The notes below the pieces were generated by a model. The model worked only from the letters and a program-made list of their open reading frames with translations, was not told the DNA's origin and did not search any database. From contig NZ_CAMHSK010000007.1 of the NCBI RefSeq assembly GCF_946187725.1, forward strand, positions 1-64,000: a stretch of 64,000 nucleotides of DNA, read 5' to 3'. A program made the position numbers and the translations under genes. The stretch comes from an uncultured Treponema sp. GTDB lineage: Bacteria > Spirochaetota > Spirochaetia > Treponematales > Treponemataceae. Shown here in pieces: positions 10,087 to 42,373 of this stretch (within the stretch, counting starts at the first letter, position 1; the number at the start of each line of letters is the position of its first letter).

Positions 10087-10107
10087 AAAATCTCCTGACT
10101 AAAACCG

Positions 10108-19488: not shown

Positions 19489-20253
19489 TTAAGATAATGT
19501 CAATCCCTTTCTGAATTCTGTCGTAAAATTCGGATCATAAAGCTTTGACCTTTCATAATCAGAATGAGAAACGACATTTCCAACGATTATGAGAGCCGTT
19601 TTTGAGATTCCCGCCGCACAGGCACTTTCAGCAAGATTTTTTACGGTGCAAACCACGCGCTTTTCGTCAGCCCATGTCGCCTTATAAACGATTGCAACAG
19701 GCGTTTCAGGCGCAATTCCCGCCGCCAGAAGCTCTTCTTGAACCTTTTCGCACATCCCCGAACTCAAAAAGAGCACCAAAGTGGCATTATGACTTGCAAG
19801 AGAACGAAGCGTTTCCTTTTCAGGAACAGGAGTCCGCCCCTGCAAGCGTGAAATAATGACGGACTGCGAAACCTCAGGAAGCGTATATTCAAGATTCAAA
19901 CTGGCCGCCGCCCCACAAAAAGAGCTAACGCCGGGCACGCTTTCATATTTTATTCCAAGCCGGTCAAGTTCATCCATTTGTTCCCGAATCGCGCCATACA
20001 AACACGGGTCACCAGTATGCAACCGAACGGTCATTTTTGCAGATTTTTCAGCCTCCTGCATCACAGAAAGCACCTGCTCAAGCGTCATTTCAGCACTATT
20101 ATAAATTTCTGTACCTTCAGAGCAATTTTCAAGCAATTCCGGGTTTACAAGCGAGCCTGCATAAATCACAACATCGGCCTTTTCGAGCAATTTTTGCCCC
20201 CGAATCGTAATCAAATCCGCCGCCCCAGGCCCTGCACCAACAAAATAAACCAT
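19489..20253 (-). CDS. cbiF: Cobalt-precorrin-4 methyltransferase CbiF/CobM
   Basis: 254 residues of the tetrapyrrole methylase family. The N-terminus VYFVGAGPGAADLITIRGQK is the SAM-binding start of CobM/CbiF, followed by VVIYAGSLVNPELL, MTVRLHTGDPCLYGAI and EYTLPEVSQSVIISR. The enzyme methylates C-11 of the corrin ring precursor. With CbiD, CbiC and CbiK nearby the early cobalt-insertion (anaerobic) route is indicated. It stands alone, 65 bases beyond the metQ start, and has the same orientation as metQ. Confidence 0.9.
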   Translation of the reverse strand: MVYFVGAGPGAADLITIRGQKLLEKADVVIYAGSLVNPELLENCSEGTEIYNSAEMTLEQVLSVMQEAEKSAKMTVRLHTGDPCLYGAIREQMDELDRLGIKYESVPGVSSFCGAAASLNLEYTLPEVSQSVIISRLQGRTPVPEKETLRSLASHNATLVLFLSSGMCEKVQEELLAAGIAPETPVAIVYKATWADEKRVVCTVKNLAESACAAGISKTALIIVGNVVSHSDYERSKLYDPNFTTEFRKGLTLS

Positions 20254-21781: not shown

Positions 21782-23059
21782 TCAGAGGATGTCCGTAAAA
21801 CTGTCGCTCCCCATCTCCGCGATAAAATCACTCACTCCTTCCGATTTTCCCAAAAGGCCGCTCTCTTTCGTGAAAATTATCACTTCCACATCGATTTTTC
21901 TGTCTGTCCAATCATATATTTGATTCCGTATCCGCCTTACGACTTCTCTCATAATCAAATTACGCGTTTTTCCTTCATCAATTAAATCCAGGACATGAAT
22001 CGCTTGCTCTGTCGTTATACAGGACATCAACCTTTCTTCAAACGAATCAAAATCTTCTATTATATTGAGATTTTTGGCCACATCACACAGGATTTCCATC
22101 CGCTTGTCACCGTACTTTGAGTGCGTATTTTTTACTCCCGCCGCAACTTTAACGAGTTTTCCGACATGACCGCAAAATAGCATCTTTTTAAAACCAGTTT
22201 TTACCGCCATCTGAACGGAATCATAAACAAAATTCGAACAGTGAACCGCCGTTTCGGGCGAAAAACCAAATTCAGCCTGCAAAAAATCGGCACCGTAATT
22301 TCCGGGAACAACCGCAAGGATTTCTCTCCCCTGCGCCTTCCGCATGTTTATCTCAAGCTGAATCGTATCCAAAATCGCCTGCTCACTCATCGGCTCAACG
22401 ATACCGCTCGTACCAAGAATCGAAATTCCGCTAACAATCCCAAGTTTCGGATTAAATGTCTGAGAGGCAATTTTTTCTCCATTCGGTACACTTATTTCAA
22501 CCTCAAGGCCAAAAGCACCGCCAAGAGAGTTTTTTCCATATCGTTTGATTTCACTTGCAAGCCCTTCCAAAATCATCTTTCGCGGAACAGAATTTATTGC
22601 TGCCTCGCCAGGCTTTTGGTCAAGTCCGGGCAAAGTAACACGCCCCACTCCATCCCCGCCAAGAATTCTGACAGACACACCATCAATTTCCGATTTCGTT
22701 CCCAGGGAAGCAGAGCGTTGAAAATTTGTTACCATTTTATCCGAAGGAACTTTTCTTACGCACGCAAAGATTTCAATTCCATTCGTTACATCAGGGTCAG
22801 TTCCGCTGAATTTTTGCACGGAGCAGGAAGCATGGTCTTTTTCAATGGATTGATTTTCAATTTCTATGCAGACTTTAATGCCTTTTGGCGTCGACAAAAT
22901 TACATACGGCACGATTTCACCAGTCAGAAGCATTCTCATTGCCGCAACACTCCCAGCCGCCGCACAAGTTCCGGTAGTAAAACCAATTTCGGGTTCAGAA
23001 AGCGCCTTTTTGAGGAAAAATGATTTTGTTTTATTGATATTTTGCGGCATTTTAATCAC
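21782..23059 (-). CDS. cbiD: Cobalt-precorrin-5B C1-methyltransferase CbiD
   Basis: 425 residues. CbiD hallmarks are GFTTGTCAAAGSVAAMRMLL near the N-terminus, GDGVGRVTLPGLDQKPGEAAI, and GTSGIVEPMSEQAI. The protein is longer than typical CbiD (about 365-380). It methylates C-1 of the ring. The frame opens with GTG at 23059, overlapping the cbiC stop by 8 bases; an ATG at 23050 is an equally possible start. It follows cbiC in the AKR-cbiC-cbiD operon. Confidence 0.92.
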   Translation of the reverse strand: MIKMPQNINKTKSFFLKKALSEPEIGFTTGTCAAAGSVAAMRMLLTGEIVPYVILSTPKGIKVCIEIENQSIEKDHASCSVQKFSGTDPDVTNGIEIFACVRKVPSDKMVTNFQRSASLGTKSEIDGVSVRILGGDGVGRVTLPGLDQKPGEAAINSVPRKMILEGLASEIKRYGKNSLGGAFGLEVEISVPNGEKIASQTFNPKLGIVSGISILGTSGIVEPMSEQAILDTIQLEINMRKAQGREILAVVPGNYGADFLQAEFGFSPETAVHCSNFVYDSVQMAVKTGFKKMLFCGHVGKLVKVAAGVKNTHSKYGDKRMEILCDVAKNLNIIEDFDSFEERLMSCITTEQAIHVLDLIDEGKTRNLIMREVVRRIRNQIYDWTDRKIDVEVIIFTKESGLLGKSEGVSDFIAEMGSDSFTDIL

Positions 23060-23714
23060 GCCTGTCGCTCATAGAATATAAAATGGCATTACAGATTGCG
23101 GCGGCAACCGTACTTCCGCCCTTTCGGCCTTCACTCACAATAAAAGGCACGCCGCTTTTCATAATCATTTCTTTGGCAGCAACAACATTCACGAATCCGA
23201 CAGGCACCCCGATTACCGCTACAGGTTTAAAACCGCCCTGCATAAGAGAGCAAAGTTCCACAAGTGCGGTAGGTGCGTTCCCGATTGCGAAAATCACTGG
23301 CTTTTGGATTTCACTCGCCTTTTTCATGCTCACGGCCGCACGCGTCATATTCAGCTCTTTTGCCTTTGCGGCGACTTCTTCATCCGCCATAAAGCAAAGA
23401 GCTTCCCCGCCAAAGCGGGAAAGTGTTTTTTTATTGATACCGGAAAGAGCCATATTTGTATCCGTCACGATACAGGCTCCGTTCGAGACCGCATTTTTTA
23501 CAATCTGCATGACATCAGGCGAGAATTTCAGCGTTTCAGCGTATTCAAAATCCGCCGTCGTATGAATCACCCGCATGATGACCGGCGCAAGCTCTTCTGG
23601 AAGAGAGATATTTTTTTCTTTCAGCTCACGAGCGATAATCGAAAAACTTGTCTTTTCAATATCAGCAGGCGCGACATGCTCAAAAGTTTCAAAAATCTCC
23701 GTACTGACAGACAT
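23052..23714 (-). CDS. cbiC: Cobalt-precorrin-8 methylmutase CbiC
   Basis: 220 residues, normal length. Family segments include MRVIHTTADFEYAETLKFSP with the catalytic His, GACIVTDTNMALSGINKKTL, FAIGNAPTALVEL and GVPVGFVNVVAAKE. The enzyme shifts the C-11 methyl group to C-12, giving hydrogenobyrinate/cobyrinate. The start ATG lies one base after the aldo/keto reductase stop, so it is cotranscribed with that gene and cbiD. Confidence 0.95.
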   Translation of the reverse strand: MSVSTEIFETFEHVAPADIEKTSFSIIARELKEKNISLPEELAPVIMRVIHTTADFEYAETLKFSPDVMQIVKNAVSNGACIVTDTNMALSGINKKTLSRFGGEALCFMADEEVAAKAKELNMTRAAVSMKKASEIQKPVIFAIGNAPTALVELCSLMQGGFKPVAVIGVPVGFVNVVAAKEMIMKSGVPFIVSEGRKGGSTVAAAICNAILYSMSDRRD

Positions 23715-24801: not shown

Positions 24802-27336
24802 CTATTTTGAAATCATTTCATAGATTTTCTTCATATCAAGATGCTGCCTTAGCGTGTCTGCAAGAAGATTGTACTGACTTTCCTTAAATTCCTGAATGTT
24901 ACCGGGGATTTCTGCCTCAGCGTTGAAAATTTGTGACTTTTTCGAAGAATCTGAATCGTTCTGCACCGATTTTCCGTCTGATTTTTTGAGGCCAGCCCAC
25001 TTAAAGCCTTTCCGTTTTGCCAGAATTTTAACGAACTGAGCCGTAAATTCCAATTCATCAAAAAGACCGTGCAAATAAGTTCCAAAAACATTGCCTTTGA
25101 CCGCTCCGTCAAGCTTTTCCTCACCCGAAACTGAATCAATAACCTGAGCAAAACAAGAAACAGACGAATCCGCCCCCGAAGCAGAAGATTTTTCAAATTC
25201 TTCAGAAAATTTTGTCCGCCCCTGATGAATCTCATAGCCCGAAACCGAAAAATGTGAAAGCGGCGCAAAGATTGATTCATCACCGCCATCACAATGAAGA
25301 TTTTTCACCTTTCCGTTCACTCGGGTAAGAGCCTTTTCCGAAGAAAATTCCGTCTCCACAGGAAGCAAGCCCAGACCTTCAGTGATTTTTTTGGCAGAAG
25401 ACGGATTTTCATACTCGGCTTCACTTCCCGAAAGTCTTTCTCCAAGCATCTGGAAGCCGCCGCAAATTCCCAGAACAGGAGTTCCTTTCGCAGCCTCTTT
25501 TTGAATCAAATCAGCAAAACCCGAATCATTAAGCCACTTCAGGTCACCAAGCGTATTTTTTGTTCCCGGAATGATTATGCAGTCAGGAAAACCCAAATCC
25601 TCAGGTTTTTGCACATAGTATGAATTAACGGCATCAAGATTTTGAAGAGGATTGAAGTCCGTGAAGTTTGAAATATGCGGCAAACGAACGATAGCAAGCT
25701 GAATTTCGTTATTTTTATTTCTAAATTTTGCCAAACTGTGCAGATTTTCAGACAGTGAATCCTCATCATCTAGCCGAATCTTAACATAAGGCACGGTTCC
25801 AACAACAGGAATCCCGGTTTTCTCTTCGAGCATTTTTATTCCGCTGTCAAGAATCGATTTATCACCCCTGAATTTGTTTATGACAAGACCTTTTATACGA
25901 GCACGCTCTTCAGGTTCAAGCAATTCAATCGTTCCGACAAGCTGCGCAAACACTCCGCCACGGTCAATATCAGCAACCAGAAGCACCGGGCTGTCAGCAA
26001 TCTTTGCCATGCCCATATTCACGATGTCATTTTCTTTAAGGTTGATTTCGGCAGGACTGCCCGCCCCTTCAATCACAATCACATCATGAGAAGAAGCCAG
26101 TTTATCGAAAGCATCTTTTATCTGTGGCACAAGCGATTTTTTAAAAGCAAAATAATCTTTTGCCCTCATATTCCCGATTGCCTTACCATTCACAATCACC
26201 TGACTTCCAACATCACTCACCGGTTTCAGAAGAATCGGATTCATAAGAACGCTTGGCTCAAGGCCGGCCGCTTCCGCCTGCATGACTTGCGCGCGCCCCA
26301 TTTCAAGCCCTTCTTTTGTAACAAAAGAATTCAATGCCATGTTCTGAGATTTAAACGGCGCGACAGAAAGCCCGTCCTGCTTAAAAATGCGGCACAATCC
26401 AGCTACGATAAAACTCTTGCCCGCATTAGACATCGTTCCCTGAATCATCAGCGGACGACAATGAAGATGATCGGCCTCACAAGCTGAATTTTGACCGATT
26501 CCCGGCGAGGCCTGCGCCCCAATCACTCCCTTCTTTTCGCAAAATTTCCTTACAAGCTCCGAATACGACTTTTCATTATCAAAGAAATCACCCCCAAGCT
26601 CATAAAGATTACAAATCTGCTTTTTACACTCAGACTCATCGCGGGAAAGTTCCGAAACCTCATCTTCGCCCACACACAAAATTCTGTCCGACACTTTGAG
26701 TGCAAGATCAAGCTCATGCAACGAAGAAATCACCGTCACGCCATTTTTACACAAATCTTTCAGAACAGAAAGCAGCTCCAAACGCCAGCGAATATCAAGA
26801 TATGAAGTCGGCTCATCCAAAACCAAAACCCTTGGGTTCTGAGCCAATGCCCGTGCTATCAGAATACGCTGCTTCTGGCCGTCACTGACTTTCATAAAAT
26901 CCTGACTCGCAAATTTTTCAGCCTTAACAAGCGAAATCACTTCGTCAATTTTTGCATTATCTTCATCAGTTAAAAGTCCAAAATGCCCGGTATAAGGATA
27001 ACGACCGCCGGCAACCACATCCCGGCAAGTCAGCAGCTCAGGCTTAATGCTAACCGTAAGCAAGGCCGACATCACGCAGGAACGCTCCTTTGCAGAATAA
27101 TCAAGCAAATCCCTGTTATTTAAGAAGATTTTCCCTGAAACCGGCGGAATTTCACCAATCAGGGTTTTAAGAATAGTTGATTTACCAGAACCGTTCGCAC
27201 CAATCAGAGAGATAAACTGCCCTTCCTCTAAAGAAAATGAAAAAGGCCGATGAAGCGGGCGCGAACCATAACCCACTGCAAGATTTTGAAATTTTACAAC
27301 CGAAGAATGTGATTCCGTTTTCGTATTTCGCTCCAA
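24802..27336 (-). CDS. cbiP: Fusion: BtuD/FecE-type ABC ATPase + cobyric acid synthase CbiP
   Basis: 844 residues. Residues 13-245 are an ABC ATPase of the iron-siderophore/B12 class: Walker A GANGSGKST (46-54), signature VSDGQKQR (150-157), Walker B RVLVLDEPT (169-177). After a 45-residue linker, residues about 292-800 are a full CbiP/CobQ: QGTMSNAGKSF (299-309), FKSQNMALNSFVT, LLVADIDRGGVFAQL, and a GATase domain with Cys625 in LGICGGFQMLG and a late His in YLHGLFDE. CbiP amidates four side chains of cobyrinate diamide; the ATPase would drive a BtuCF-type importer. Matching permease and binding-protein genes lie at 29489 and 34072. Translation starts at a TTG (27336); no in-frame ATG precedes the ATPase. 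Confidence 0.9.
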   Translation of the reverse strand: MERNTKTESHSSVVKFQNLAVGYGSRPLHRPFSFSLEEGQFISLIGANGSGKSTILKTLIGEIPPVSGKIFLNNRDLLDYSAKERSCVMSALLTVSIKPELLTCRDVVAGGRYPYTGHFGLLTDEDNAKIDEVISLVKAEKFASQDFMKVSDGQKQRILIARALAQNPRVLVLDEPTSYLDIRWRLELLSVLKDLCKNGVTVISSLHELDLALKVSDRILCVGEDEVSELSRDESECKKQICNLYELGGDFFDNEKSYSELVRKFCEKKGVIGAQASPGIGQNSACEADHLHCRPLMIQGTMSNAGKSFIVAGLCRIFKQDGLSVAPFKSQNMALNSFVTKEGLEMGRAQVMQAEAAGLEPSVLMNPILLKPVSDVGSQVIVNGKAIGNMRAKDYFAFKKSLVPQIKDAFDKLASSHDVIVIEGAGSPAEINLKENDIVNMGMAKIADSPVLLVADIDRGGVFAQLVGTIELLEPEERARIKGLVINKFRGDKSILDSGIKMLEEKTGIPVVGTVPYVKIRLDDEDSLSENLHSLAKFRNKNNEIQLAIVRLPHISNFTDFNPLQNLDAVNSYYVQKPEDLGFPDCIIIPGTKNTLGDLKWLNDSGFADLIQKEAAKGTPVLGICGGFQMLGERLSGSEAEYENPSSAKKITEGLGLLPVETEFSSEKALTRVNGKVKNLHCDGGDESIFAPLSHFSVSGYEIHQGRTKFSEEFEKSSASGADSSVSCFAQVIDSVSGEEKLDGAVKGNVFGTYLHGLFDELEFTAQFVKILAKRKGFKWAGLKKSDGKSVQNDSDSSKKSQIFNAEAEIPGNIQEFKESQYNLLADTLRQHLDMKKIYEMISK

Positions 27337-29465: not shown

Positions 29466-29490
29466 AGGGGGGCTAAGCTCCCCCTTTTTT
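29466..29490 (+). terminator. Terminator of the gpx-trxB-ohrR operon
   Basis: GGGGGG and TCCCCC pair around CTAAGC (29467-29484, one G-T pair), followed by TTTTTT. It sits at the junction with the convergent permease gene. Confidence 0.8.
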
Positions 29491-30499
29491 ACTTCCCTTT
29501 CCGTCTTGAAATCAGCATGAAAATCACGACGGGCGCACCGAAAATCGAAGTGACCGTGCTGATGCTCAGTTCCAGCGGAGCAAACACGCTTCGGGCAATC
29601 AAATCGCAAACAAGGCAGAAAAGCGCACCGCCCAAAAAAGAAGCGGGAATCACTGTAAGCGGCTTTGAAGTCTGAAACAACTGCTTAATCAAAAAAGGAA
29701 CCGCGATTCCAACAAAAGAGACAGGGCCGGCAAATGCAGTAACACAGGCAGAAAGCACGCTCGACAGAAGAATCAAAAGAGGCCTGAAAAGCTTTGTATT
29801 CACGCCCATCGTTCTCGCATAAGATTCGCCCAGCTGGTATGCAGAAATGGGCTTTGCCAGCAGAAAGACAAAAATCACGCACAGAAGAATAATCACGCCG
29901 CTCACCGCACAATCAGAAAGCGAAAAGCCCGCAAAACTTCCCTTCGACCAGTTATGAAGATTCACAATGTCTGCATCCTGAGCAAAAGTGACAAAAAAAT
30001 CAGTAAGTGCCGAAGTGATGTAGCCAATCATGATTCCAGCCACTAGAAGCGAACCGATATGATGAACTTTTTTCGAAATCAGCAATATAAAAAGCGTAGA
30101 GAAAATTGCGCCCGCAAAGCTTGATGTGACCAGCGCGGCAGAACCAACGGAAATTCCCCGCTGCAAGAAAAAAATCATCGTCATTGCCACGAACATTTTC
30201 GCACCCGAAGAAATTCCAAGCACAAAAGGACCGGCAATCGGATTCTGAAAATAAGTCTGTAGCAGAAATCCCGAAAGCGAAAGTCCGCCCCCCAAAAGAA
30301 AGGCCATAATCACGCGCGGAAGCCGAATCTGCAAAACGATATTGCTTTCCTGCAGCGAGTGCGTTCCATGCAAAAAGAGAATCTGAAATACACGCAAAGG
30401 CGGAATATGAACGGAGCCAGAACAAACAGAAACAAGGGATGCCAAAAAGACCGCAAAAATGAGAAAAACGAAAATCAAAGGCGAACGGAATTTACTCAT
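29489..30499 (-). CDS. FecCD/BtuC-family ABC permease (cobalamin or metal chelate)
   Basis: 336 residues with about nine or ten membrane helices. Family segments are LRVFQILFL, IRLPRVIMAFLLGGGLSLSG, FQNPIAGPFVLGISSGA and the coupling stretch GPVSFVGIAVPFL. BtuC-type permeases dimerise and import vitamin B12, heme or siderophores. Its natural partners here are the ATPase domain fused to CbiP (24802) and the BtuF-like lipoprotein (34072), neither of which is adjacent. It begins 3 bases after the HAD gene stop, so these two are cotranscribed. Cobalamin or cobinamide is the inferred substrate. Confidence 0.85.
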   Translation of the reverse strand: MSKFRSPLIFVFLIFAVFLASLVSVCSGSVHIPPLRVFQILFLHGTHSLQESNIVLQIRLPRVIMAFLLGGGLSLSGFLLQTYFQNPIAGPFVLGISSGAKMFVAMTMIFFLQRGISVGSAALVTSSFAGAIFSTLFILLISKKVHHIGSLLVAGIMIGYITSALTDFFVTFAQDADIVNLHNWSKGSFAGFSLSDCAVSGVIILLCVIFVFLLAKPISAYQLGESYARTMGVNTKLFRPLLILLSSVLSACVTAFAGPVSFVGIAVPFLIKQLFQTSKPLTVIPASFLGGALFCLVCDLIARSVFAPLELSISTVTSIFGAPVVIFMLISRRKGK

Positions 30500-32738: not shown

Positions 32739-33776
32739 TTAGCGTCGTTTTACGCCTTCACCGTAAATTGTCTTCCAGTCGTCTTTCATTGAGATAGGAA
32801 TCCAACCGAACTTTTCGCAGTCGCTCTTCATTTGAGCGGCCTTTTTTGGATTTCCATATTCGCGTTCGGTATCATCACAGCAAAGCATAAATCCGAGTGC
32901 CTTGTACGGATTATTGTTAATCGTATAATTTACCATGCTCGCATCACTCATAGCATTTCCGAATGCAAGAACCGGCTGAACTCCAACTTCCTGCGCAATC
33001 ACGGCAACCTTGTTCATCTGAAGATTTTTAACAAGATTTTTGCCTCCGAGAATGAGCTCATCGCCCTTTGTGAAAGTATATGAAAGTCCGTCAATTTCAC
33101 CCTGATTGCTTGAAATAATCGTGCTGTCAGAACCGATAACCTGATACGGTCGGAGAACAGGAAGATTCTTTGCAACAAGCGGCCGAACTGTGAGACGGTC
33201 CGTGCCGCTGCAAATATAAACGGTAAAACCATTTTCAGAAAGATAATTCACGACTTCGACCATCGGTTTATAGAATGATTCACCACGCTTCATTCCAATA
33301 AATCCCGGCTGATCCTGTTCCATAAAATCGGTAATGAATTCCTCAAATTCTTTCAAAGAAAGACCTGTGTAAACTTTTGAGACCATGCTTTCTCGCTTTG
33401 AGCTGAGATTAGGCATAATCCCTTTTTCGCGTGAATTTCGCGCGATTTCACGCTCTTCCTCGCTTGCATTATAGCGGGGATCATCAAGAACGCGATGCTC
33501 AAACAAAGCCCAGTCAAAATAAGTCGGGTCCGTTTCAAGAATCAGGGTGCCGTCAAGATCAAAAACTGCGATTCGATTTTCAAGCGGAATGAAATCAGCA
33601 GAATCCTTTTTTGTCACCGATTCAACATACTCAACGAGAGCTTTCTTTGCAGGCGCATTTTCTGTCCATGAAGAAAGATTTTCGTTTGTTGCCCGTGAAC
33701 AGCTGAATGTTAGCAAAGCAACCGCAAAGACCAGAAACAGATTTTCAAGAAGATGCTTTTTAGAATTTATTTTCAT
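32739..33776 (-). CDS. Lipoprotein HAD phosphatase
   Basis: 345 residues from ATG 33776 (GGAG upstream; an in-frame ATG at 33878 would start before the hairpins). A signal peptide with lipobox LTFSC anchors it in a membrane. HAD motifs: AVFDLDGTLILETDP, YICSGTDRLTVRP, and LAFGNAMSDASMV. A cap of about 110 residues follows motif I, as in PSP-like (HAD subclass I) enzymes. An exported acid phosphatase that salvages phosphate or substrates outside the cytoplasm is likely. It is not closely linked to any neighbour. Confidence 0.8.
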   Translation of the reverse strand: MKINSKKHLLENLFLVFAVALLTFSCSRATNENLSSWTENAPAKKALVEYVESVTKKDSADFIPLENRIAVFDLDGTLILETDPTYFDWALFEHRVLDDPRYNASEEEREIARNSREKGIMPNLSSKRESMVSKVYTGLSLKEFEEFITDFMEQDQPGFIGMKRGESFYKPMVEVVNYLSENGFTVYICSGTDRLTVRPLVAKNLPVLRPYQVIGSDSTIISSNQGEIDGLSYTFTKGDELILGGKNLVKNLQMNKVAVIAQEVGVQPVLAFGNAMSDASMVNYTINNNPYKALGFMLCCDDTEREYGNPKKAAQMKSDCEKFGWIPISMKDDWKTIYGEGVKRR

Positions 33777-33792
33777 TTGTAAAAAACTCCTA

Positions 33793-33950
33793 TAAAAAGT
33801 CAAGAAGAAAGTTTCAACTTTCGATTGACTTTTTAAGCTGCTCCGTAATGAAATGAGGAGCGGCAATTGATAATGCAAGTTTCCAACGGAAACTTGTCAA
33901 GATAAAAAGCAGGCGCTATTTCAGACTGCTTTTTATCCTAACTCCTTATA
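33793..33950 (-). promoter_or_regulatory. Hairpins between btuF-like and HAD lipoprotein genes
   Basis: Three inverted repeats lie here: AAAAAGTCAA...TTGACTTTTT (33796-33835) with an inner AAAGT/ACTTT, CAAGTTTCC-AAC-GGAAACTTG (33874-33898 region), and AAAAAGCAG...CTGCTTTTT (about 33915-33948). The last is followed by T residues in either direction and probably terminates the cbiK-btuF transcript. The first sits in the leader of the HAD lipoprotein gene and could attenuate it. Confidence 0.6.
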
Positions 33951-34071: not shown

Positions 34072-35205
34072 CTACTCTACCCTTTCCAGAAACAAAGTCT
34101 CTTCGCCGCGCCCATCCACAATTTTCTGTAAATCGAGAATCATGTCACCAATTCTGTCCGTCGCCTGATAAAGATATTTTCCAGTTGCCCAAACTTCATC
34201 CGCTGCAATCGCTTTGAATTCCTTAAAAAGCGGATTTTTTTCAATAAGTTCCTGTTTAGAATGAATCGAATTGTCAATCGCAGAATTGTAAATCAGAATG
34301 TCAGCATCTGCACTCATCGCATAGAATTGTTCCATCGAAATCTGAACCGAAGGACTTCTGCTCTTTCGTGTCTCCGTAAAAGCATATTTTCCGCCCGCAA
34401 GTTCTATCATCTTAACGATGTAATCATCACTTCCACGAATTACAACCATGCCAGTAGGTGTTATATAGAAGAAAGATACCTTTTTTGAAGGGCGCGGATT
34501 AGAATCAGAATGGATGCCCAGTTTTTCAACCTGCCTGTCAAAAAAAGATTTAGCCTCACTGGCCTTGCCAAAAAGCAGTCCGTAAAGCTTAATCCATTCA
34601 AGCCGGCCGAGCGGATGTTCCTCATAACTCGATTTATCAACAAACACCGTGATTCCAAGTGACTCAAGTTTTTCCAGAATTGAAGGCGTATGATAAATCA
34701 TGGTGGATTCAATCGCAAGCGGGCAATTTTCTTTAAGCAGAAGCTCAAAGTCCGGGGAATTGTATTTTCCAGCATACAAAAGCGTGCCGTTTTCAATTGC
34801 ACGCAAAGGCTCTTCAATGTTCCAGTCTTTTTTTTGAATCGCCGAAAAACGAATCGAATCAACAGAGCCAAGCCTTGCAATCAAAGACATTGCCGATGAA
34901 GCACACAGATAAGCGTTTTTAACCGGAAGATTTATCGTTCGAATTTCAGGCGGAAGATTTTCCGGAGCACTGTGATTTTCTGGAATCAATAGATAACGGT
35001 CTGAATCAAGAACCGTCAGAAGAACAAAGTCATCAGCACCGTCACTGTACACATCAGCGCGAAATGCCGTGGCATAATCCAACGAAATAGTATGATTAAA
35101 AGTCAGGCCTTCGATTTGAGGAATAGCCTGAGAAACATTACGCGAGCATGAAACAAGCAGGAAAAACAGTATAATCAGCGAACAACGCTTGATTTTTGAA
35201 ATCAT
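34072..35205 (-). CDS. BtuF-like substrate-binding lipoprotein
   Basis: 377 residues with lipobox LLVSC in the signal peptide. The fold is the iron/B12 periplasmic-binding type: VDSIRFSAIQKKDW, IESTMIYHTPSILEKLESLG, ITVFVDKSSYEEHPLGRLEW, and ADADILIYNS near the end. In this operon (cbiK, NEAT-like gene, this gene) under a cobalamin riboswitch, the ligand is probably cobalamin or a cobalt/corrinoid precursor. It overlaps the upstream gene by four bases. Partner permease: 29489; partner ATPase: N-terminus of the CbiP fusion. Confidence 0.82.
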   Translation of the reverse strand: MISKIKRCSLIILFFLLVSCSRNVSQAIPQIEGLTFNHTISLDYATAFRADVYSDGADDFVLLTVLDSDRYLLIPENHSAPENLPPEIRTINLPVKNAYLCASSAMSLIARLGSVDSIRFSAIQKKDWNIEEPLRAIENGTLLYAGKYNSPDFELLLKENCPLAIESTMIYHTPSILEKLESLGITVFVDKSSYEEHPLGRLEWIKLYGLLFGKASEAKSFFDRQVEKLGIHSDSNPRPSKKVSFFYITPTGMVVIRGSDDYIVKMIELAGGKYAFTETRKSRSPSVQISMEQFYAMSADADILIYNSAIDNSIHSKQELIEKNPLFKEFKAIAADEVWATGKYLYQATDRIGDMILDLQKIVDGRGEETLFLERVE

Positions 35206-36092
35206 TTTTTCTTTTTAGTTTTTTTGGCAGATTTTGAATCGAATTCCAGCCAATAATGAATTTCGTGACTTTTGCTCATGGCAACAGTGTCAGCGGTAAC
35301 AGGCATTTTTTTATCGAACACATAGACAGGAATTTCAAAGGTAGAATTTCCGCCTTTTTCAAGATTTTTTTGATTTACATCAAAGCGGGAACGATTGACC
35401 TTCATGTAATCATAGTTTGCACTGCTCCACTCTAGCTCGGCAGTCGCAAGCCCGTCTTTTACCGTTATGTATGCCGGACTCTTAACAAAAGCTCTTCCGC
35501 TCCCACCAGAGAGTTTTACATTGATTTTATATAAGCCATCTTTGAGAGCGATTTTTTGCTGCTTTTTGGGCGATATAAAAATCGATTCCTCCGGGAGAGA
35601 AGAAGCATCAAATAGAATATCCCGGTCATACCACTTTTGTTTTTTTGAGCTGAATGCAGCACATTTAATAGAAGAATTTAACGCTTCTAAAGGAAATTCA
35701 AAGCAGTAAGAACCGTTTTCATTCTGTGAAAAAGGAATATCGTCTGTGCCCCCCGCACTTGCCGCATCCAAAGCCGTTCCAAGAAACAGCTTTGTGTATG
35801 ACTTTCCGCTCAGCGTGATGTTTGCACGAATTGAGCCTGAGCCGCTTTCATCGGATTTTACAATAATCTTTGCCGCAACAATCCTGAACATTGAAGAGCT
35901 TGATTCCGTTTCAACAGAATACTCGCCTTCCGCAATGTCGTCCGCAAAAACTGGAATCATGTCTTCGGTTCCAACCTTCTGCGGAGTGAGAACTTCGTTC
36001 CCCGAAGCGACAAGACTTTCTACAGACTGCGCAAATGAAGCATTGAAAAGCAAAAACTGAAAGATTACAGCAAGTACGAGAGATTTTCGCAT
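35202..36092 (-). CDS. Exported two-module NEAT-like protein of the cobalt/cobalamin operon
   Basis: 296 residues with signal peptide MRKSLVLAVIFQFLLFNASFAQ (cut after SFA, no lipobox). Two beta-sandwich modules can be seen: residues about 50-165 (EGEYSVETESSS, IRANITLSGKSYTKLFLGTA) and about 180-285 (DGLYKINVKLSGGSGRAFVK, DGLATAELEWSSANYDYMKV). The pattern resembles NEAT/iron-transport-associated domains found with metal-chelate importers in Firmicutes. The C-terminus is Lys-rich. It lies between CbiK and the binding lipoprotein with tight spacing, so a periplasmic or surface role in tetrapyrrole or cobalt capture is inferred. Confidence 0.65.
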   Translation of the reverse strand: MRKSLVLAVIFQFLLFNASFAQSVESLVASGNEVLTPQKVGTEDMIPVFADDIAEGEYSVETESSSSMFRIVAAKIIVKSDESGSGSIRANITLSGKSYTKLFLGTALDAASAGGTDDIPFSQNENGSYCFEFPLEALNSSIKCAAFSSKKQKWYDRDILFDASSLPEESIFISPKKQQKIALKDGLYKINVKLSGGSGRAFVKSPAYITVKDGLATAELEWSSANYDYMKVNRSRFDVNQKNLEKGGNSTFEIPVYVFDKKMPVTADTVAMSKSHEIHYWLEFDSKSAKKTKKKK

Positions 36093-36103
36093 AGGATTCT
36101 ATT

Positions 36104-36991
36104 CTACAGTGATTTTACAGCAGCTTTTGCATGCTCAACATAAATCTGCTGAATTGTTGCGTCCTGTCCCAATCCTTCGAGAACGCACTCAACCTCAAAG
36201 CCAGCTGCCTTGAAAATTGATTTCCATGAATCGTCCTCATCACCTGCCATGTCATTGTTTGCATGATCACCAGCAACAACCATGAGAGGAAGAAGAACGA
36301 CTTTTGAATATGTGCCTTTTGCCTTGATTGCCTCAACCAAATCCTCTACAGAAGGTTTTGCTTCGACAGTGCCTACATAATAGTTAGCGAAACCTTTTGC
36401 AGTGAGAGTTTCCTGCATCTTAGAATAGATTTTGTTTGATTCAGCTTCTGTTCCGTGACCCATGAAACAGATTGCGCTTTTGCCATCGTCAAATTTTGCT
36501 GTTTTTGCAGTGATTGCGGCAGCAACTGAATCGAAATCAGCATCGCTTGAAAGAAGAGGCTTTGAAAGGACAACCTTTGAGAATTTGCTTTCATATTTTG
36601 AAAGGATTTTCTGCAAGTCATTGTACTCAAATCCGTCCATCAGGTGAGTTGGCTGAACAACCAGTGTTTTGACACCGTTATTTGCAGCTCGTGTAAGAGC
36701 CTCGTCAACATTGTCAATTACAAGATTTTCGCGCTCTTTAAGGATTTTGATGATTGTATCAGCAGTAAAAGCGCGGGCAACAGTGTAGTCAGGGAAAGCC
36801 TTTGCAATTGCATTTTCGATTCCGCCGATTGTGAGGTCGCGGGAAGAATTGTAGCTGGTTCCGAAGCTGACGACAAGAATTTCTTTGTCATTTGAAGCGA
36901 CTTTTGCTGTACTTCCACAAGATGTGAAAACCGAAGCGAAGAGAACACTTGCACCCATTGCAAGTGCGGCCAATTTAGAACATTTGTTCAT
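36104..36991 (-). CDS. cbiK: Lipoprotein sirohydrochlorin cobaltochelatase CbiK
   Basis: 295 residues. CbiK features: EILVVSFGTSYNSSRDLTIG, LVVQPTHLMDGFEYNDL, FMGHGTEAESNKIY with a metal-site His, and LLPLMVVAGDHANNDMAGDE. The enzyme inserts Co2+ into sirohydrochlorin, the first committed step of the anaerobic cobalamin route. An N-terminal signal peptide with lipobox FTSCGS is present, so this copy is exported and lipidated, unlike cytosolic CbiK. Start ATG 36991 follows AAGGAG. The gene is directly behind a cobalamin riboswitch. An exported CbiK could act in cobalt or heme capture instead. Confidence 0.9.
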   Translation of the reverse strand: MNKCSKLAALAMGASVLFASVFTSCGSTAKVASNDKEILVVSFGTSYNSSRDLTIGGIENAIAKAFPDYTVARAFTADTIIKILKERENLVIDNVDEALTRAANNGVKTLVVQPTHLMDGFEYNDLQKILSKYESKFSKVVLSKPLLSSDADFDSVAAAITAKTAKFDDGKSAICFMGHGTEAESNKIYSKMQETLTAKGFANYYVGTVEAKPSVEDLVEAIKAKGTYSKVVLLPLMVVAGDHANNDMAGDEDDSWKSIFKAAGFEVECVLEGLGQDATIQQIYVEHAKAAVKSL

Positions 36992-37032
36992 TTAAAAACT
37001 CCTTTGTCTCGAAGAAGACTTTTAATATTAAC

Positions 37033-37161
37033 TTTAGGCTGGTGTCTGACTCGAAATAACTTCTCACAGTAGCGGCACTGCTTGGGATTTTCACCCAATT
37101 CCCAGTTAGGAGCCTGCCCGTATCATCTGATTCAACGATATGTAAGCAGACTCACCTAAAA
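37033..37161 (-). ncRNA. Cobalamin (AdoCbl) riboswitch upstream of cbiK
   Basis: Read on the minus strand, the B12 box AGTCAGACACCAGCC lies at 37051-37037. The core GGGAATTGGGTGAAAATCCC followed by AAGCAGTGCCGCTACTGTGA is at about 37104-37063. Closing helix P1 is TTTTAGG (37161-37155) with CCTAAA (37038-37033). A short GTCT/AGAC hairpin lies just before the AAGGAG of cbiK, so translation control is plausible. It should repress cbiK and the two downstream genes when cobalamin is abundant. Confidence 0.92.
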
Positions 37162-37189
37162 TCGACTTTTAATTTATCATTTAAGGAAA

Positions 37190-37300: not shown

Positions 37301-38461
37301 TTACTTGCCGCCAACGCGATACTTTGCAGTAATTGGAACTGTCCATAGCCAGCGATATTCGCCGTCAGCAATTTCTTTATAGAACATATCCAAGCCGGCC
37401 GTGAGCGTCCATTTTTCAATTTCAAGCACTACCCTTGGGTAAAATTCCCAGGTATCGAAAGAATTTGAAGAATCAGATGTGTCAAAGGCAGCATAATAAC
37501 CGACCATAGGCTTCAAGGAAATCGCTTCAGCAACAGGGAACTGAACCTGCAATGCCGAATAAAACGGAACGATGCTTCCATCAACAGAATGTCCGATTTC
37601 ACTTTCACTCGTGATTTTTACGATTCCGATTACAGGGCGAATTGCCAGCGAAAAGAGATTTGATTTTTTGACATCCGCATACATCGGCGATTTGCTGCTG
37701 CTCACGACCGCAACAGGGCTTAATACGGTGTGCGCGACAAAAGGCCTGACATTATGAGAAAAGGCTGCAAAAACTCCAAGATTCTTAAACGCGCCGATAT
37801 TCCGACCTGAATAGTTTATTGAAAGACATTCAGAAAAATCTTTCTCAGAAATTGAATTTACATCAGCGTCATCATCACCGGTTGCGGAATACAAAATGTC
37901 CGCGCCAAGAACGACAGGAAGGCTTTTTGAAACCGTGGCAAAATCATAGCTCACTGCGGCATTCAACCCCCAGTTCTTTCTATATTCAACATAGCTTTCG
38001 GTAAGAGGCAGGGCAAGTCCGAAAGTCAGTCCGTTTCGTTCAATTTTTGCACCGAAGCCTGTTTCACCCCAACGGGCAGCTCCGGTGTAAGTCTCTGTAA
38101 GTGAAAAATATCCGCCAGGAAGATAATATGAATAGAGCTTTCCGAGTGCGAATTCAAAAGAATTGTTTCCGAACGGCCTGATCTTTATATACGCGCGCTT
38201 AACATCAAGTTTCTGAGATTCCGCTTCTTTTGAATCGGTCTTGTTGAGGCGATAATACAATTTTCCGCCAAGCGTGACAAAATCATCGCTCATCACACTT
38301 TCGGCCAAAAAATATGCTCCGCCGAATTGAACATCATCGGTTTCATCCTTGTCGATTGGTGTGACAGAGAAAGTCAAAGTCGTATTGTTTTTGCTTCCAG
38401 ATGCAAAAACCGAAGCGACAGAAAGAACTGCCGCAAGAAGATTGGCAAATACTTTTTTCAT
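37301..38461 (-). CDS. Outer-membrane beta-barrel-type protein
   Basis: 386 residues from ATG 38461, whose product begins with signal peptide MKKVFANLLAAVLSVASVFA; the open frame extends 22 codons further upstream but without a signal-like start. The body alternates short amphipathic strands (LYYRLNKTD, YIKIRPFGNNSFEFALGKLY, WTLTAGLDMFYKEI), as in spirochaete outer-membrane porin-like proteins. It ends in YRVGGK, not the usual aromatic residue. It precedes the riboswitch-controlled cobalt operon in the same orientation, so it might serve substrate entry for that system, but this is inference from position only. Confidence 0.6.
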   Translation of the reverse strand: MKKVFANLLAAVLSVASVFASGSKNNTTLTFSVTPIDKDETDDVQFGGAYFLAESVMSDDFVTLGGKLYYRLNKTDSKEAESQKLDVKRAYIKIRPFGNNSFEFALGKLYSYYLPGGYFSLTETYTGAARWGETGFGAKIERNGLTFGLALPLTESYVEYRKNWGLNAAVSYDFATVSKSLPVVLGADILYSATGDDDADVNSISEKDFSECLSINYSGRNIGAFKNLGVFAAFSHNVRPFVAHTVLSPVAVVSSSKSPMYADVKKSNLFSLAIRPVIGIVKITSESEIGHSVDGSIVPFYSALQVQFPVAEAISLKPMVGYYAAFDTSDSSNSFDTWEFYPRVVLEIEKWTLTAGLDMFYKEIADGEYRWLWTVPITAKYRVGGK

Positions 38462-38533
38462 GCGTGAGATTATGGCGGAAATCAGAAAATTGGGCAATGA
38501 AAAACCAGCAGATTCCGACAGGTTCAAAAACCT

Positions 38534-39640: not shown

Positions 39641-39928
39641 TTACAAAATCAGAACGCCTTGAGGATTTATAGGTTCTTTTTGACCAATGTGTTCAACTTT
39701 TCTCTGCCAATTTGCTCCGAGTGAATAGAATCTTAAACTGTCATATTCGGGATTTATTTCTTTCAACAATTTTGTCTTTAGTTCGACCCACTGTGCGGGA
39801 TCAACAAGGCATTCAAATACTGAGTACTGAACACGCTGGCCATAATCTTCAAGGATCTTTGCTACATGCCTTAACCGTTTTTCACCCTTTTCATCTTTTG
39901 CTACATCATAACTCACAAGCATCATCAT
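39641..39928 (-). CDS. cas2: CRISPR-associated endonuclease Cas2 (type I-C)
   Basis: 95 residues of normal length: MLVSYDVAKDEKGEKRLRHV with the conserved Asp, YGQRVQYSVFECLVDPAQW, and a C-terminal tail (PQGVLIL). Cas2 dimers bridge two Cas1 dimers in spacer integration. The ATG at 39928 follows TGGAGG; two more ATG codons follow directly. Normally cas2 is a few bases after cas1, but here 771 bases holding a NYN gene intervene, so cas2 needs its own promoter. Confidence 0.93.
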   Translation of the reverse strand: MMMLVSYDVAKDEKGEKRLRHVAKILEDYGQRVQYSVFECLVDPAQWVELKTKLLKEINPEYDSLRFYSLGANWQRKVEHIGQKEPINPQGVLIL

Positions 39929-39957
39929 TTTAAGCCTCCAAAATAAGAAAAACTGTA

Positions 39958-40041
39958 TTGACTACACACAAAAATAGTGTTATATTTAATACATAAAGAC
40001 CGAAAGTAGGGTTTTATATCAAACACATTTTTGTGTACCCT
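39958..40041 (+). promoter_or_regulatory. Promoter and hairpin leader of the NYN gene
   Basis: TTGACT (39958-39963), a 17-base spacer and TATATT (39981-39986). The leader then forms AGGGT (40008-40012) / ACCCT (40037-40041) with inner ACACA-TTTT-TGTGT (40023-40036). The promoter spacer holds a related ACACAAAAATAGTGT (39966-39980), so one protein might bind both, which is speculative. Confidence 0.55.
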
Positions 40042-40075
40042 AAGTAGGTCTATTTTTTTTGAGGGGGTAAATGTT

Positions 40076-40699
40076 GTGAACACAGCAGTACTTATAGATG
40101 GCGCTTTTCTTCGTAAAAAGTTCCATGCTGCTTATAAAAAAGATATTACAGCAGAAAATATCAATAAATTTGCAAACTCCTTGCTCACACATTTTAATCT
40201 TCCTTTGAATGAACTCCATCGAATCTATTATTACGATTGTTCTCCTTGCACGGCAAAAAGTTCTCTCCCCGTAACAAACCGTGCTTTTCTGTTTGAGAAA
40301 ACTCCCCAATTTTCTTATGGTAAACAACTTCTTTCTGACATAAAAAAACTTAATTTTTTTGCCGTCAGAGAAGGAACTCTTCAATTTTCCGGTTGGAAAC
40401 TCAAAAAAACTGCATACAATAAACAGCCTCTCACTGATGATGACTTTGAGCCAGAACTTCACCAAAAAGGGGTAGATATAAAAATCGGTCTTGACCTTGC
40501 ATGGATTAGTTTTAATCACATCGCTGAGCGAGTAATCTTCGTTACTGGTGATTCCGATTTTATCCCAGCAATAAAAACTGCTCGTAGAAACGGTATTTTT
40601 ATTTATCTCGCAACATTGAATCATATGGTTCGTCCTGAATTGCCTGACAATTGCGATCTTTCGCTCTCAGATTCTATAAAAATATTCAACTGCATATAG
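40076..40699 (+). CDS. NYN-domain (PIN-like, LabA type) RNase inserted between cas1 and cas2
   Basis: 207 residues from GTG 40076, which has GAGGGGG eight bases upstream; the frame is open further back but only into the hairpin leader. NYN landmarks are TAVLIDGAFLRKKFHAAY near the start, GVDIKIGLDLAWISF, and VIFVTGDSDFIPAIKTARRN, supplying the clustered acidic residues of a Mg2+-dependent ribonuclease. The gene faces against the cas operon, and its stop abuts the cas1 stop exactly (40699/40700). It probably cleaves RNA. A defence or regulatory role next to CRISPR genes is inference. Confidence 0.88.
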   Translation: MNTAVLIDGAFLRKKFHAAYKKDITAENINKFANSLLTHFNLPLNELHRIYYYDCSPCTAKSSLPVTNRAFLFEKTPQFSYGKQLLSDIKKLNFFAVREGTLQFSGWKLKKTAYNKQPLTDDDFEPELHQKGVDIKIGLDLAWISFNHIAERVIFVTGDSDFIPAIKTARRNGIFIYLATLNHMVRPELPDNCDLSLSDSIKIFNCI

Positions 40700-41731
40700 T
40701 TATTTCCAGATATAAACAGGATAGCCGTTAATATCTCCACGCAGATGTCTGGCTAAAAGACGAGCCTGAGTTTGAAACAAAATCGCAAGATGCATTTTCT
40801 TTTCTACATACGGATGATTGAGCACGGCTTCTTTCTTTTTCTGATACGCCTGAACCACTGTTTTTCGTGCGGTTTCATTCATAATTACTGCACCGCTTGC
40901 AGTTTTTTCAAATTGACTGGCAGTAACTTCATTGCGATTTATCAGCGAAAGCACAAGTCTGTCTGCAAAAAACGCACGGAACTCTTCCATCAAGTCAAGC
41001 GCAAGGCTAAGTCGCCCTGGTCGGTCACGGTGCATGAATCCAACTGCGGGGTCAAGGCCGACGACTTCGCATGCGCTAATCATATCGTGGTACAAAAGTG
41101 TGTAAACATAAGAAAGAAGTGCGTTAACATTGTCGAGAGGCGGTCGGCGATTTCGTCCTCCGAATTTAAATCCACCTTTTTGGGAAGTAATAAGTTCATC
41201 GAACACCGAAAAATATGTTTCAGCTGAATCGCCTTCAATTCCACGGAGCTTGTCCAAATCATTTTCTCGCTCAACTTTTTCTAGGCTTCGGCTCAAACTG
41301 TCGATTGCAGTTTGAAGGCGTGGAACATCAACTTTGTCTTTGTGGTCGCGAACTGCACGCTGCAATACGGTTCTCTGATTTGCGATTTTTCCCATAATGA
41401 AATATTTTGCAACCTGAGCAGATTTTTCCTTATCATCTGAAACTCGGTACTGAGCTTTACGAAGAAGAACATTTCCTGAAACAGGACCTTGAACACGGGC
41501 AAGGAATTTTCCAGTTTCGGAAAGAAAGCTGATTGTAATGTTGTGCTCAGGAGCAGCACCAAGCAGAAACGGACTTACATAAATGTTTCCAAAACAGACA
41601 ATACTGTCGAGGTTTATCATCGGAATTGAAGCGACGGTTTTATCTTCCACAATGACTTCAATAGCTTCGCCTTTTTTATGAAGATAAGTTTTCTGTGTCG
41701 TAACATACAATGTGTTCAAAAATCTTTGCAT
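40700..41731 (-). CDS. cas1: CRISPR-associated integrase Cas1 (type I-C)
   Basis: 343 residues, full length. Landmarks are RFLNTLYVTTQKTYLHKKGE at the N-terminus, the active-site Glu in GIEGDSAETYF, His in VGFMHRDRPGRLSLALDL, and acidic residues in MEEFRAFFADRL. Cas1 integrates prespacers into the array with Cas2. The start ATG follows the cas4 stop with no gap. All catalytic residues appear intact even though the array and effector genes are lost, so the protein may still be functional. Confidence 0.95.
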   Translation of the reverse strand: MQRFLNTLYVTTQKTYLHKKGEAIEVIVEDKTVASIPMINLDSIVCFGNIYVSPFLLGAAPEHNITISFLSETGKFLARVQGPVSGNVLLRKAQYRVSDDKEKSAQVAKYFIMGKIANQRTVLQRAVRDHKDKVDVPRLQTAIDSLSRSLEKVERENDLDKLRGIEGDSAETYFSVFDELITSQKGGFKFGGRNRRPPLDNVNALLSYVYTLLYHDMISACEVVGLDPAVGFMHRDRPGRLSLALDLMEEFRAFFADRLVLSLINRNEVTASQFEKTASGAVIMNETARKTVVQAYQKKKEAVLNHPYVEKKMHLAILFQTQARLLARHLRGDINGYPVYIWK

Positions 41732-42373
41732 TTACACCTCGTCAATTCCAATTGTTTCAGACTGAATCCGCCGTTTTAGATAAGTTTCGACAGATTTGTT
41801 CCGCCCTGCAGATTCTGGAAAACACTCGTCAATGAATGAACATGATTCGCATTTTCTTTTGTATTCCGCTAGCGGAGTTTTTCCGCTTTCGACAAGTTCA
41901 TGGAATTTTCTTGCAAGTTCAATCGTCTCTAATCTAAGCTCATCCGTAATTTTTACAGGAATTCTTCTGCGGATTTTAAAATAATACAACGCACCTTCTT
42001 CAATCTTACAACCAAGCATTTCTTCAAGGCAGATGACTTGCGCACAAAGCTGAACTTCATCACAAGAATCTTCTTTCGGCTCGCCGTGCTTATATTCAAT
42101 GGGAATAACAGTTCCATCTGAATAAAACTCTACAGCATCGGTTTGACCAGTAATGCCGAGGAAACTTGAGGCGATTTTTAAATCACGCTCAGTTCGCACT
42201 ATACGCCGAGATTCCCCTACTCCGCTGTGAACTTTTTCGTGCTGGGCACGACCAGATGCGGTGAAGAAGTTTTCATGCCAGAGTTGTTCAATATGTATGA
42301 GTGCACACTGCCGCGGACAGAACTTTATATGTTGCAGTCCGCTGAGCAGGAGGTAGTCGGATTCTTGATACAT
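41732..42373 (-). CDS. cas4: CRISPR-associated exonuclease Cas4 (type I-C)
   Basis: 213 residues. The four Fe-S cysteines are present: one N-terminal in IKFCPRQCALIH and three in KCESCSFIDEC. The RecB-like nuclease residues lie in GITGQTDAVEFY, VIPIEYKHG and CDEVQLCAQVICLEE. Cas4 trims prespacers and selects PAM-bearing ends before integration. The ATG overlaps the stop of the cas7 fragment by one base (TGATG) as in an intact I-C operon, and cas1 follows directly. Confidence 0.94.
   Translation of the reverse strand: MYQESDYLLLSGLQHIKFCPRQCALIHIEQLWHENFFTASGRAQHEKVHSGVGESRRIVRTERDLKIASSFLGITGQTDAVEFYSDGTVIPIEYKHGEPKEDSCDEVQLCAQVICLEEMLGCKIEEGALYYFKIRRRIPVKITDELRLETIELARKFHELVESGKTPLAEYKRKCESCSFIDECFPESAGRNKSVETYLKRRIQSETIGIDEV

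Follow-up and report, generated by a model that had tools for sequence, protein, structure and literature searches.

In an uncultured, gut-type Treponema species, a riboswitch-controlled operon probably encodes a system that captures tetrapyrroles outside the cytoplasm and imports them to feed cobamide synthesis. The operon lies on the minus strand of a 64,000-nucleotide stretch (contig NZ_CAMHSK010000007.1, positions 1 to 64,000; here called the window). An adenosylcobalamin (AdoCbl) riboswitch precedes three nearly abutting genes, encoding in order an exported CbiK chelatase, a NEAT-like protein, and a lipoprotein with a Peripla_BP_2 domain. Judging from sequence comparisons, we give this reading a probability of roughly 0.6 because the genomes concerned are ring auxotrophs, the sole CbiK is exported, the genes are under B12 control, corrin genes occur in the operon, and CbiK, NEAT, and BtuF domains occur fused to one another. 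The parts in the window are:

37020-37174, minus strand: cobalamin (AdoCbl) riboswitch aptamer (RF00174, 64.6 bits against a gathering threshold of 31.5, E 1.2e-13)
36993-37026, minus strand: predicted hairpin pairing the cbiK Shine-Dalgarno sequence AGGAG, a candidate expression platform (coordinates taken from the minimum free energy fold)
36104-36991, minus strand: exported CbiK chelatase with a lipobox signal at residues 1-25 (PF06180, 1.1e-82)
35202-36092, minus strand: exported two-module NEAT-fold protein with a Sec-type signal (AlphaFold2 model, NEAT structural matches, and Pfam NEAT matches of its relatives)
34072-35205, minus strand: BtuF-type substrate-binding lipoprotein (PF01497, Peripla_BP_2, 5e-29; lipobox LVSC)

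The genes are tightly packed: 11 bp separate cbiK from the NEAT gene, and the NEAT and BtuF-type genes share 4 bp. The aptamer, the only RF00174 copy in the whole genome, ends 28 nucleotides before the CbiK ATG, and its far edge lies slightly beyond position 37161, where the first-pass annotation had drawn its limit. That annotation, made from the letters of the window, had described a riboswitch-controlled operon of an exported CbiK, a NEAT-like protein, and a BtuF-like lipoprotein; RF00174, PF06180, the NEAT fold, and PF01497 bear it out on every part. The 201-nucleotide leader folds with a minimum free energy of -49.7 kcal/mol (z -1.99; 6 of 200 shuffles are equally stable), and the predicted hairpin, placed directly behind the aptamer, would fit translational control of cbiK.

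CbiK itself is readily recognized. Its match to PF06180 scores 277.8 bits (cut-off 26.2) and covers positions 1-261 of the 262 in the profile; the NCBIfam equivalog NF047852 gives 235 bits against a cut-off of 400. Residues E122, H179, and H243 are invariant in a 12-sequence alignment, and we take them to be the counterparts of the Salmonella CbiK active-site residues E89, H145, and H207. The glutamate and both histidines also align with solved CbiK structures. The closest solved chains are Porphyromonas gingivalis FetB (9b86, 1.7e-47), Salmonella CbiK (1qgo), and Desulfovibrio vulgaris CbiK-P (2xvx, 120 bits). Ahead of the CbiK domain, which begins at residue 36, stand a signal, consisting of a basic n-region, a hydrophobic core, and the lipobox FTSC, and a short linker, with nothing else.

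Export of this chelatase is well supported by comparison with its relatives. Export was called by reading N-termini, by a hydropathy/start-codon test, and from fusions to binding domains. A GTDB scan provided the best 80 of 589 CbiK relatives, comprising three from Treponema/Spirochaetaceae and 77 others, nearly all from gut or rumen Firmicutes. An export signal precedes CbiK in 75 of the 77 loci (with a lipobox in 67), and both misses are at contig ends. In Treponema, 28 of the 33 CbiK loci fetched belong to the exported class; 27 of these carry the signal, and the remaining one begins at a contig end. An export signal such as the first-pass annotation had read in the window protein is conserved among these loci. 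The hydropathy/start-codon test also scores two further treponeme loci, L060 and L061, as positive because their reading frames extend into the gene ahead; their likely start yields no signal. As a separate observation, exported CbiKs of one Treponema subtype (L032-L041) mostly bear an insert of about 80 residues between the signal and the CbiK domain.

The partner proteins accompany the signal. Counting all reading frames, NEAT is present in 75 of the 77 Firmicutes loci, the BtuF type in 70, and both in 69; the corresponding Treponema figures are 24 and 23 of the 28 exported-class loci for NEAT and the BtuF type, respectively. Moreover, the proteins occur as single-frame fusions: six of CbiK to NEAT (L096, L134, L141, L142, L152, L072), eight of NEAT to the BtuF type (L148, L114, L161, L150, L125, L074, L078, L069), and one of CbiK to the BtuF type (L159, with CbiK at 70-324 and Peripla_BP_2 at 418-665 by Pfam). 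Since binding proteins work outside the cytoplasmic membrane, these fusions place CbiK there, and they suggest that a ligand may be handed from CbiK to NEAT to the importer. One could suppose instead that the signal goes unused and that CbiK is an ordinary cytosolic biosynthetic cobaltochelatase, given that the genome has no other CbiK. We consider this highly improbable: all three misses among the signals are contig ends, CbiK is fused to NEAT and BtuF domains, and in a cell with neither HemC nor SUMT (see below) such an enzyme would have no internal substrate.

In a rapid maximum-likelihood tree built from 113 CbiK domains (L064, L080, L124, and rows of fewer than 225 residues omitted), the exported CbiKs of both phyla, along with L079, fall into a single group (Shimodaira-Hasegawa-like approximate likelihood ratio test 99) that excludes the cytosolic CbiKs of treponemes and the second copies of Firmicutes; the placement of the root and of long branches is uncertain. 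The spread of the exported group across two phyla suggests horizontal transfer.

The NEAT-like protein was identified by its fold. Against Pfam NEAT (PF05031) it scores 19 bits, below the cut-off of 32.8, and we therefore call it a NEAT-fold protein without claiming Pfam membership for it; of its 43 aligned relatives, 34 do match Pfam NEAT at E<=0.01 (best E 5.6e-11). A sequence search of solved structures with this protein returned none, and the relation was found through fold comparison only. Specifically, the AlphaFold2 model (predicted local distance difference test score, pLDDT, 94.7; predicted template modelling score 0.84) matches the haem-bound NEAT domains of IsdX1 and IsdX2 with a Foldseek probability of 1.00, and VIA gives Z 12.6 and a root-mean-square deviation of 2.4 over 108 residues, mainly in module 2 (model 161-269). 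The profile of each module matches the other, showing that the two are homologous, as the earlier description of a two-module exported NEAT-like protein had it. At the place that we presume to match the YxxxY haem-ligand signature of NEAT domains, module 2 carries HxxxY in 38 of 43 aligned sequences and YxxxY in 5, the second tyrosine being present in all 43. Module 1 has a tyrosine in 43 of 43 members and no second tyrosine. In full-length numbering, these residues are H276 and Y280 (module 2) and Y155 (module 1). Compared with the haem-transfer proteins IsdX1, IsdX2, and IsdH, module 2 mostly has histidine in place of tyrosine at the presumed axial position (38/43), and the window system keeps company with corrin genes and a B12 riboswitch instead of being tied to iron regulation.

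This fold, shared with the haem-transfer proteins IsdX1, IsdX2, and IsdH, introduces the main rival to our proposal, haem or iron acquisition. The notion is that the exported CbiK binds haem or strips its iron, as proposed for IhtB/FetB, that NEAT carries the haem, and that a BtuFCD-type importer takes up haem or iron. It ranks first among the rivals, since FetB, like NEAT domains, is a haem protein: the model matches haem-bound domains, and the solved chain nearest to CbiK, FetB, is designated a "heme-binding protein". IhtB, according to the part of its description available to us, is thought to take iron out of haem (PMC10913741). Nonetheless, we regard haem acquisition as unlikely. RF00174 lies beside CbiK at 22 of the 24 exported Treponema loci searched (the misses are L029, at a contig end, and L039) and upstream of cbiK at all nine Firmicutes loci searched, which is not expected of haem uptake. 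The link to corrin genes, described next, likewise opposes haem uptake: within the genus CbiK and CbiC occur together almost without exception, the operon continues into corrin genes, and the ABC ATPase is fused to CbiP. At the locus of a relative, L014, we also noted a TD-2 RNA match (RF03162; 2412-2502, plus strand) between the riboswitch and cbiK, antisense to the operon.

Full-length CbiK is encoded by 33 of 98 same-genus genomes, CbiC by 30, and both by 29 (Fisher 1.9e-19, kinship ignored). The count of 33 omits G014, G071, and G092, which have a divergent short match only. CbiC occurs without CbiK in G013, and CbiK without CbiC in G022, G023, G043, and G055. In three loci (L048, L062, and L093), the order is CbiK, NEAT, BtuF, BtuC, ATPase, CbiP, CbiC, CbiD, CbiF. 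The permease is contiguous with the operon in relatives; in the window, the permease and the ATPase-CbiP fusion sit apart from it:

29489-30499, minus strand: FecCD/BtuC-type permease, away from the operon here (PF01032, 3e-73)
24802-27336, minus strand: ATP-binding cassette (ABC) ATPase fused to cobyric acid synthase CbiP (PF00005 at 31-178, CbiA at 296-519, GATase_3 at 547-761; NCBIfam cobyric acid synthase, 5e-187)
23052-23714, minus strand: CbiC (PF02570, NCBIfam)
21782-23059, minus strand: CbiD (PF01888, 1.1e-88; TIGR00312)
19489-20253, minus strand: CbiF (TIGR01465, 1.2e-101)

At the NCBIfam level, the binding protein matches IsdE only, at 21.6 bits (cut-off 298.65), and the best model for the permease is BtuC, at 193 bits (cut-off 334). 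Since both miss the equivalog cut-offs, we name them BtuF and BtuC "type" only.

A B12 riboswitch beside a BtuFCD-type importer would also fit classical B12 import, and the best permease model, albeit under its cut-off, is BtuC. By that account, BtuFCD imports finished cobamides or cobinamide, and the exported CbiK and NEAT proteins are accessory surface binders. We find this less probable still than haem acquisition. Invariance of the three CbiK active-site residues in 12 sequences is unexpected for a mere binder, and retention of corrin genes in genomes that have neither HemC nor SUMT would be left unexplained.

We treated some CbiK-like genes separately. Those of L081, L082, L083, and L086 (genomes G043, G092, G020, and G014) are divergent, encode about 220-230 residues, and have no signal. 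Each is followed by a binding protein, a BtuC-type permease, and an ATPase of its own, and G043, G092, and G014, though not G020, show no CbiC match. Such loci may encode a kindred importer with a different ligand.

The host genome argues for an external ring source. It encodes CbiL, CbiH, CbiF, CbiG, CbiD, a CbiJ-CbiE-CbiT fusion, CbiC, CbiA, CbiP, CbiB, CobU, CobT, and a CobD-like aminotransferase (CbiL, at 161.5 bits, is slightly under its cut-off of 163.25). A search of this genome found no HemC and no SUMT at cut-off; its five tetrapyrrole-methylase matches are CbiF, CbiH, CbiE, CbiL, and an RsmI-like protein, the last named by eye. The assembly is a draft (98.08% complete). Nevertheless, HemC occurs in only 2 of the 98 Treponema genomes, the same 2 in which SUMT passes its cut-off, and we thus read the absence as a trait of the genus and not as an assembly gap. 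Without HemC and SUMT, the corrin pathway from cobalt-factor II has no internal sirohydrochlorin source, and the host should not be able to make its own sirohydrochlorin. As regards these two genes, the genome has the profile of a tetrapyrrole-precursor salvager, with corrin genes kept and upstream genes gone. The first-pass annotation had held that a second, cytosolic CbiK would overturn its proposal. None was found in this genome: there is one PF06180 gene, a CbiX search returns that same gene, and there is no CobN.

We propose the following course of events. When adenosylcobalamin is low, the riboswitch would permit expression of the operon. The CbiK lipoprotein would take up a sirohydrochlorin-class ring outside, released by other microbes and possibly derived from sirohaem, and insert cobalt. 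From CbiK, the product would travel via the two NEAT modules to the BtuF-type protein and be imported by the BtuC-type permease and ABC ATPase, after which CbiL, then the later Cbi/Cob enzymes, would complete the corrin. Because the cell has no SUMT, the captured ring must already bear both SUMT methyl groups; candidates would be sirohydrochlorin, precorrin-2, sirohaem after iron removal, and Co-sirohydrochlorin itself. Haem is unusable as a ring source for the corrin pathway. The sequences themselves show the riboswitch, the parts and their order, the export signals, the NEAT fold, the CbiK active-site residues, the corrin genes from CbiL on, the fusions, and the lack of HemC and SUMT; we infer the ligand, the insertion of cobalt outside, the direction of hand-over, and the activity of the products. 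A fuller version, in which cobalt insertion has moved outside the cytoplasm, Co-sirohydrochlorin is made at the surface from a scavenged ring, and ring and cobalt are imported by a CbiK-NEAT-BtuFCD system shared horizontally between Treponema and gut Firmicutes, is one that we hold tentatively, at somewhat below even odds.

The first-pass annotation had cast the operon as a cobalt or tetrapyrrole capture system rather than a pure biosynthetic step. The capture role stands on the signals and fusions. The contrast with biosynthesis does not stand as worded, since the operon is present in 29 of 30 CbiC genomes: because it travels with corrin genes and runs into them in relatives, capture is most likely the first B12-making step. 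Between the two cargoes, tetrapyrrole capture is likelier than capture of bare cobalt. Cobalt scavenging would have the exported CbiK and NEAT load cobalt onto a tetrapyrrole whose ring would matter only as a vehicle for the metal. CbiK chemistry is compatible with it, and B12 riboswitches have identified cobalt uptake genes, as an excerpt of PMC7689651 relates. We give the idea very little weight, as it would not alone supply the ring needed by genomes with neither HemC nor SUMT.

The operon is a concrete candidate for a ring-uptake system, found in Treponema and in rumen and gut Firmicutes. If the fuller version, with cobalt insertion at the cell surface, is correct, members of gut communities would be trading sirohydrochlorin-class rings. 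If ring capture is correct, genomes labelled B12 producers on CbiK evidence may in fact depend on their neighbours, and "BtuFCD" annotated beside exported CbiKs may carry a precursor instead of B12.

Several observations weigh against ring capture. NEAT and BtuF-type proteins are known as haem binders, which is compatible with haem use, and among solved structures the BtuF-type protein has no close relative, the best match being an iron-uptake binding protein at E 0.63. The 80 loci from the GTDB scan were chosen for closeness to the window CbiK, and their shared features are therefore partly a product of selection. The genomes surveyed are drafts. In addition, four treponemes without HemC and SUMT (G041, G061, G062, and G078) have a cytosolic CbiK; export is therefore not required in every case. 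Conversely, treponeme G028 has HemC and SUMT, and its sole CbiK is exported. The signal-less treponeme CbiKs number five (L053, L056, L059, L060, and L061). A Peripla_BP_2 gene lies directly upstream in all four tested of these five loci, and an AdoCbl-II riboswitch is present at four of the five; in the four genomes just named, CbiK comes after a Peripla_BP_2 gene in the three tested. In these signal-less loci, too, CbiK is associated with a BtuF-type protein, so that the pairing holds on either side of the membrane.

Firmicutes provide evidence on both sides. HemC, SUMT, and a second CbiK were sought there in the genomes of the first 50 of the 77 loci in list order (Treponema excluded). HemC is present in 20 and SUMT over its cut-off in 21, namely those 20 and G112. 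The system is therefore not confined to ring auxotrophs, and 9 of the 20 carriers with HemC and SUMT show no second CbiK. A strict rule that exported CbiK occurs only where HemC is absent is ruled out by these 20 genomes. In favour of ring capture, 29 of the 50 have neither gene, and methylase matches of corrin type, some below cut-off, occur in all 50. Moreover, 11 of the 20 genomes with HemC, but 2 of the 30 without it, encode a second CbiK (p 2.2e-4, kinship ignored), and the second copies inspected have no convincing export signal. Thus, ring-making cells appear to tend to keep a cytosolic CbiK too, and non-makers to rely mostly on the exported copy alone.

Exported CbiKs are already known singly, in D. 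vulgaris (CbiK-P) and P. gingivalis (IhtB/FetB). By a paper's title, D. vulgaris reportedly has two functional CbiKs; the window genome has one. CbiK-P, described as periplasmic (PMC4063343), is like the window CbiK an exported CbiK-family cobaltochelatase with the conserved glutamate and two histidines. At 120 bits, it is less similar to the window protein than is FetB or Salmonella CbiK, and no NEAT partner is reported for it in the sections of the source at hand. In Desulfovibrio, a single B12 element spans cbiK-cbiL and btuCDF, according to an extract of PMC545781. P. gingivalis IhtB is a lipoprotein accompanied by a binding protein, a permease, and an ATPase, and is read as a haem/iron protein in the available part of PMC10913741. 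IhtB/FetB, the closest solved relative of the window CbiK, thus has a similar lipoprotein and importer set; the Iht system differs in its TonB-dependent receptor, in its haem/iron reading, and in that a NEAT component is not among the parts listed in that portion of the paper.

Ring auxotrophs that keep the corrin pathway have been noted before. In the accessible portion of Shelton et al. 2019 (PMC6461909), P. gingivalis is without the steps leading to precorrin-2, and tetrapyrrole-precursor salvagers, with corrin genes kept and early steps gone, are mostly Firmicutes. Use of 5-aminolaevulinic acid was tested there in three salvager species, Treponema primitia among them. The tested cases take up this acid, in which they differ from the system proposed here, and that portion names no uptake system for a macrocycle. 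A rumen metagenome paper, in the passage available, assigns cobaltochelatase a role in carrying sirohydrochlorin, citing 2008 D. vulgaris work (PMC12654859); the transport idea is therefore already in print. In the open-licence literature, we found no description of a CbiK-NEAT-BtuFCD operon, none of a connection between such an operon and the absence of HemC and SUMT, and no paper joining a NEAT domain with a cobalamin riboswitch.

Other genes in the window are:

37301-38527, minus strand: exported protein, a weak candidate for an outer-membrane partner (homologues in some exported-CbiK loci)
8029-9426, minus strand: CobD-type aminotransferase (PF00155; the name CobD comes from context)
6908-8029, minus strand: CobT (PF02277, 9.8e-120)
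5874-6911, minus strand: CobU (PF02283, 2.5e-35)
4890-5873, minus strand: CbiB (TIGR00380, 8e-72)

The protein at 37301-38527 has no Pfam or NCBIfam match. A homologue lies within the fetched stretch of 6 of the 28 exported-CbiK Treponema loci, as counted by picking the longest open reading frames, which misses genes under antisense frames. An outer-membrane role was set aside: the single-sequence AlphaFold2 model was unusable (pLDDT 32.5).

Cas2-like, Cas1-like, and Cas4-like open reading frames, named by eye, adjoin the B12 region at 39641-42373 (minus strand). A TD-1 RNA (RF03155, 66.5 against 64.5 bits) lies at 33788-33907 (minus strand), with a HAD-type lipoprotein gene (32739-33785) downstream of it. 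Methionine-type ABC importer genes sit among the B12 genes at 9433-11133 and 18645-19424 (minus strand); the binding protein at 18645 belongs to the NlpA family by Pfam, and the permease and ATPase were named by eye.

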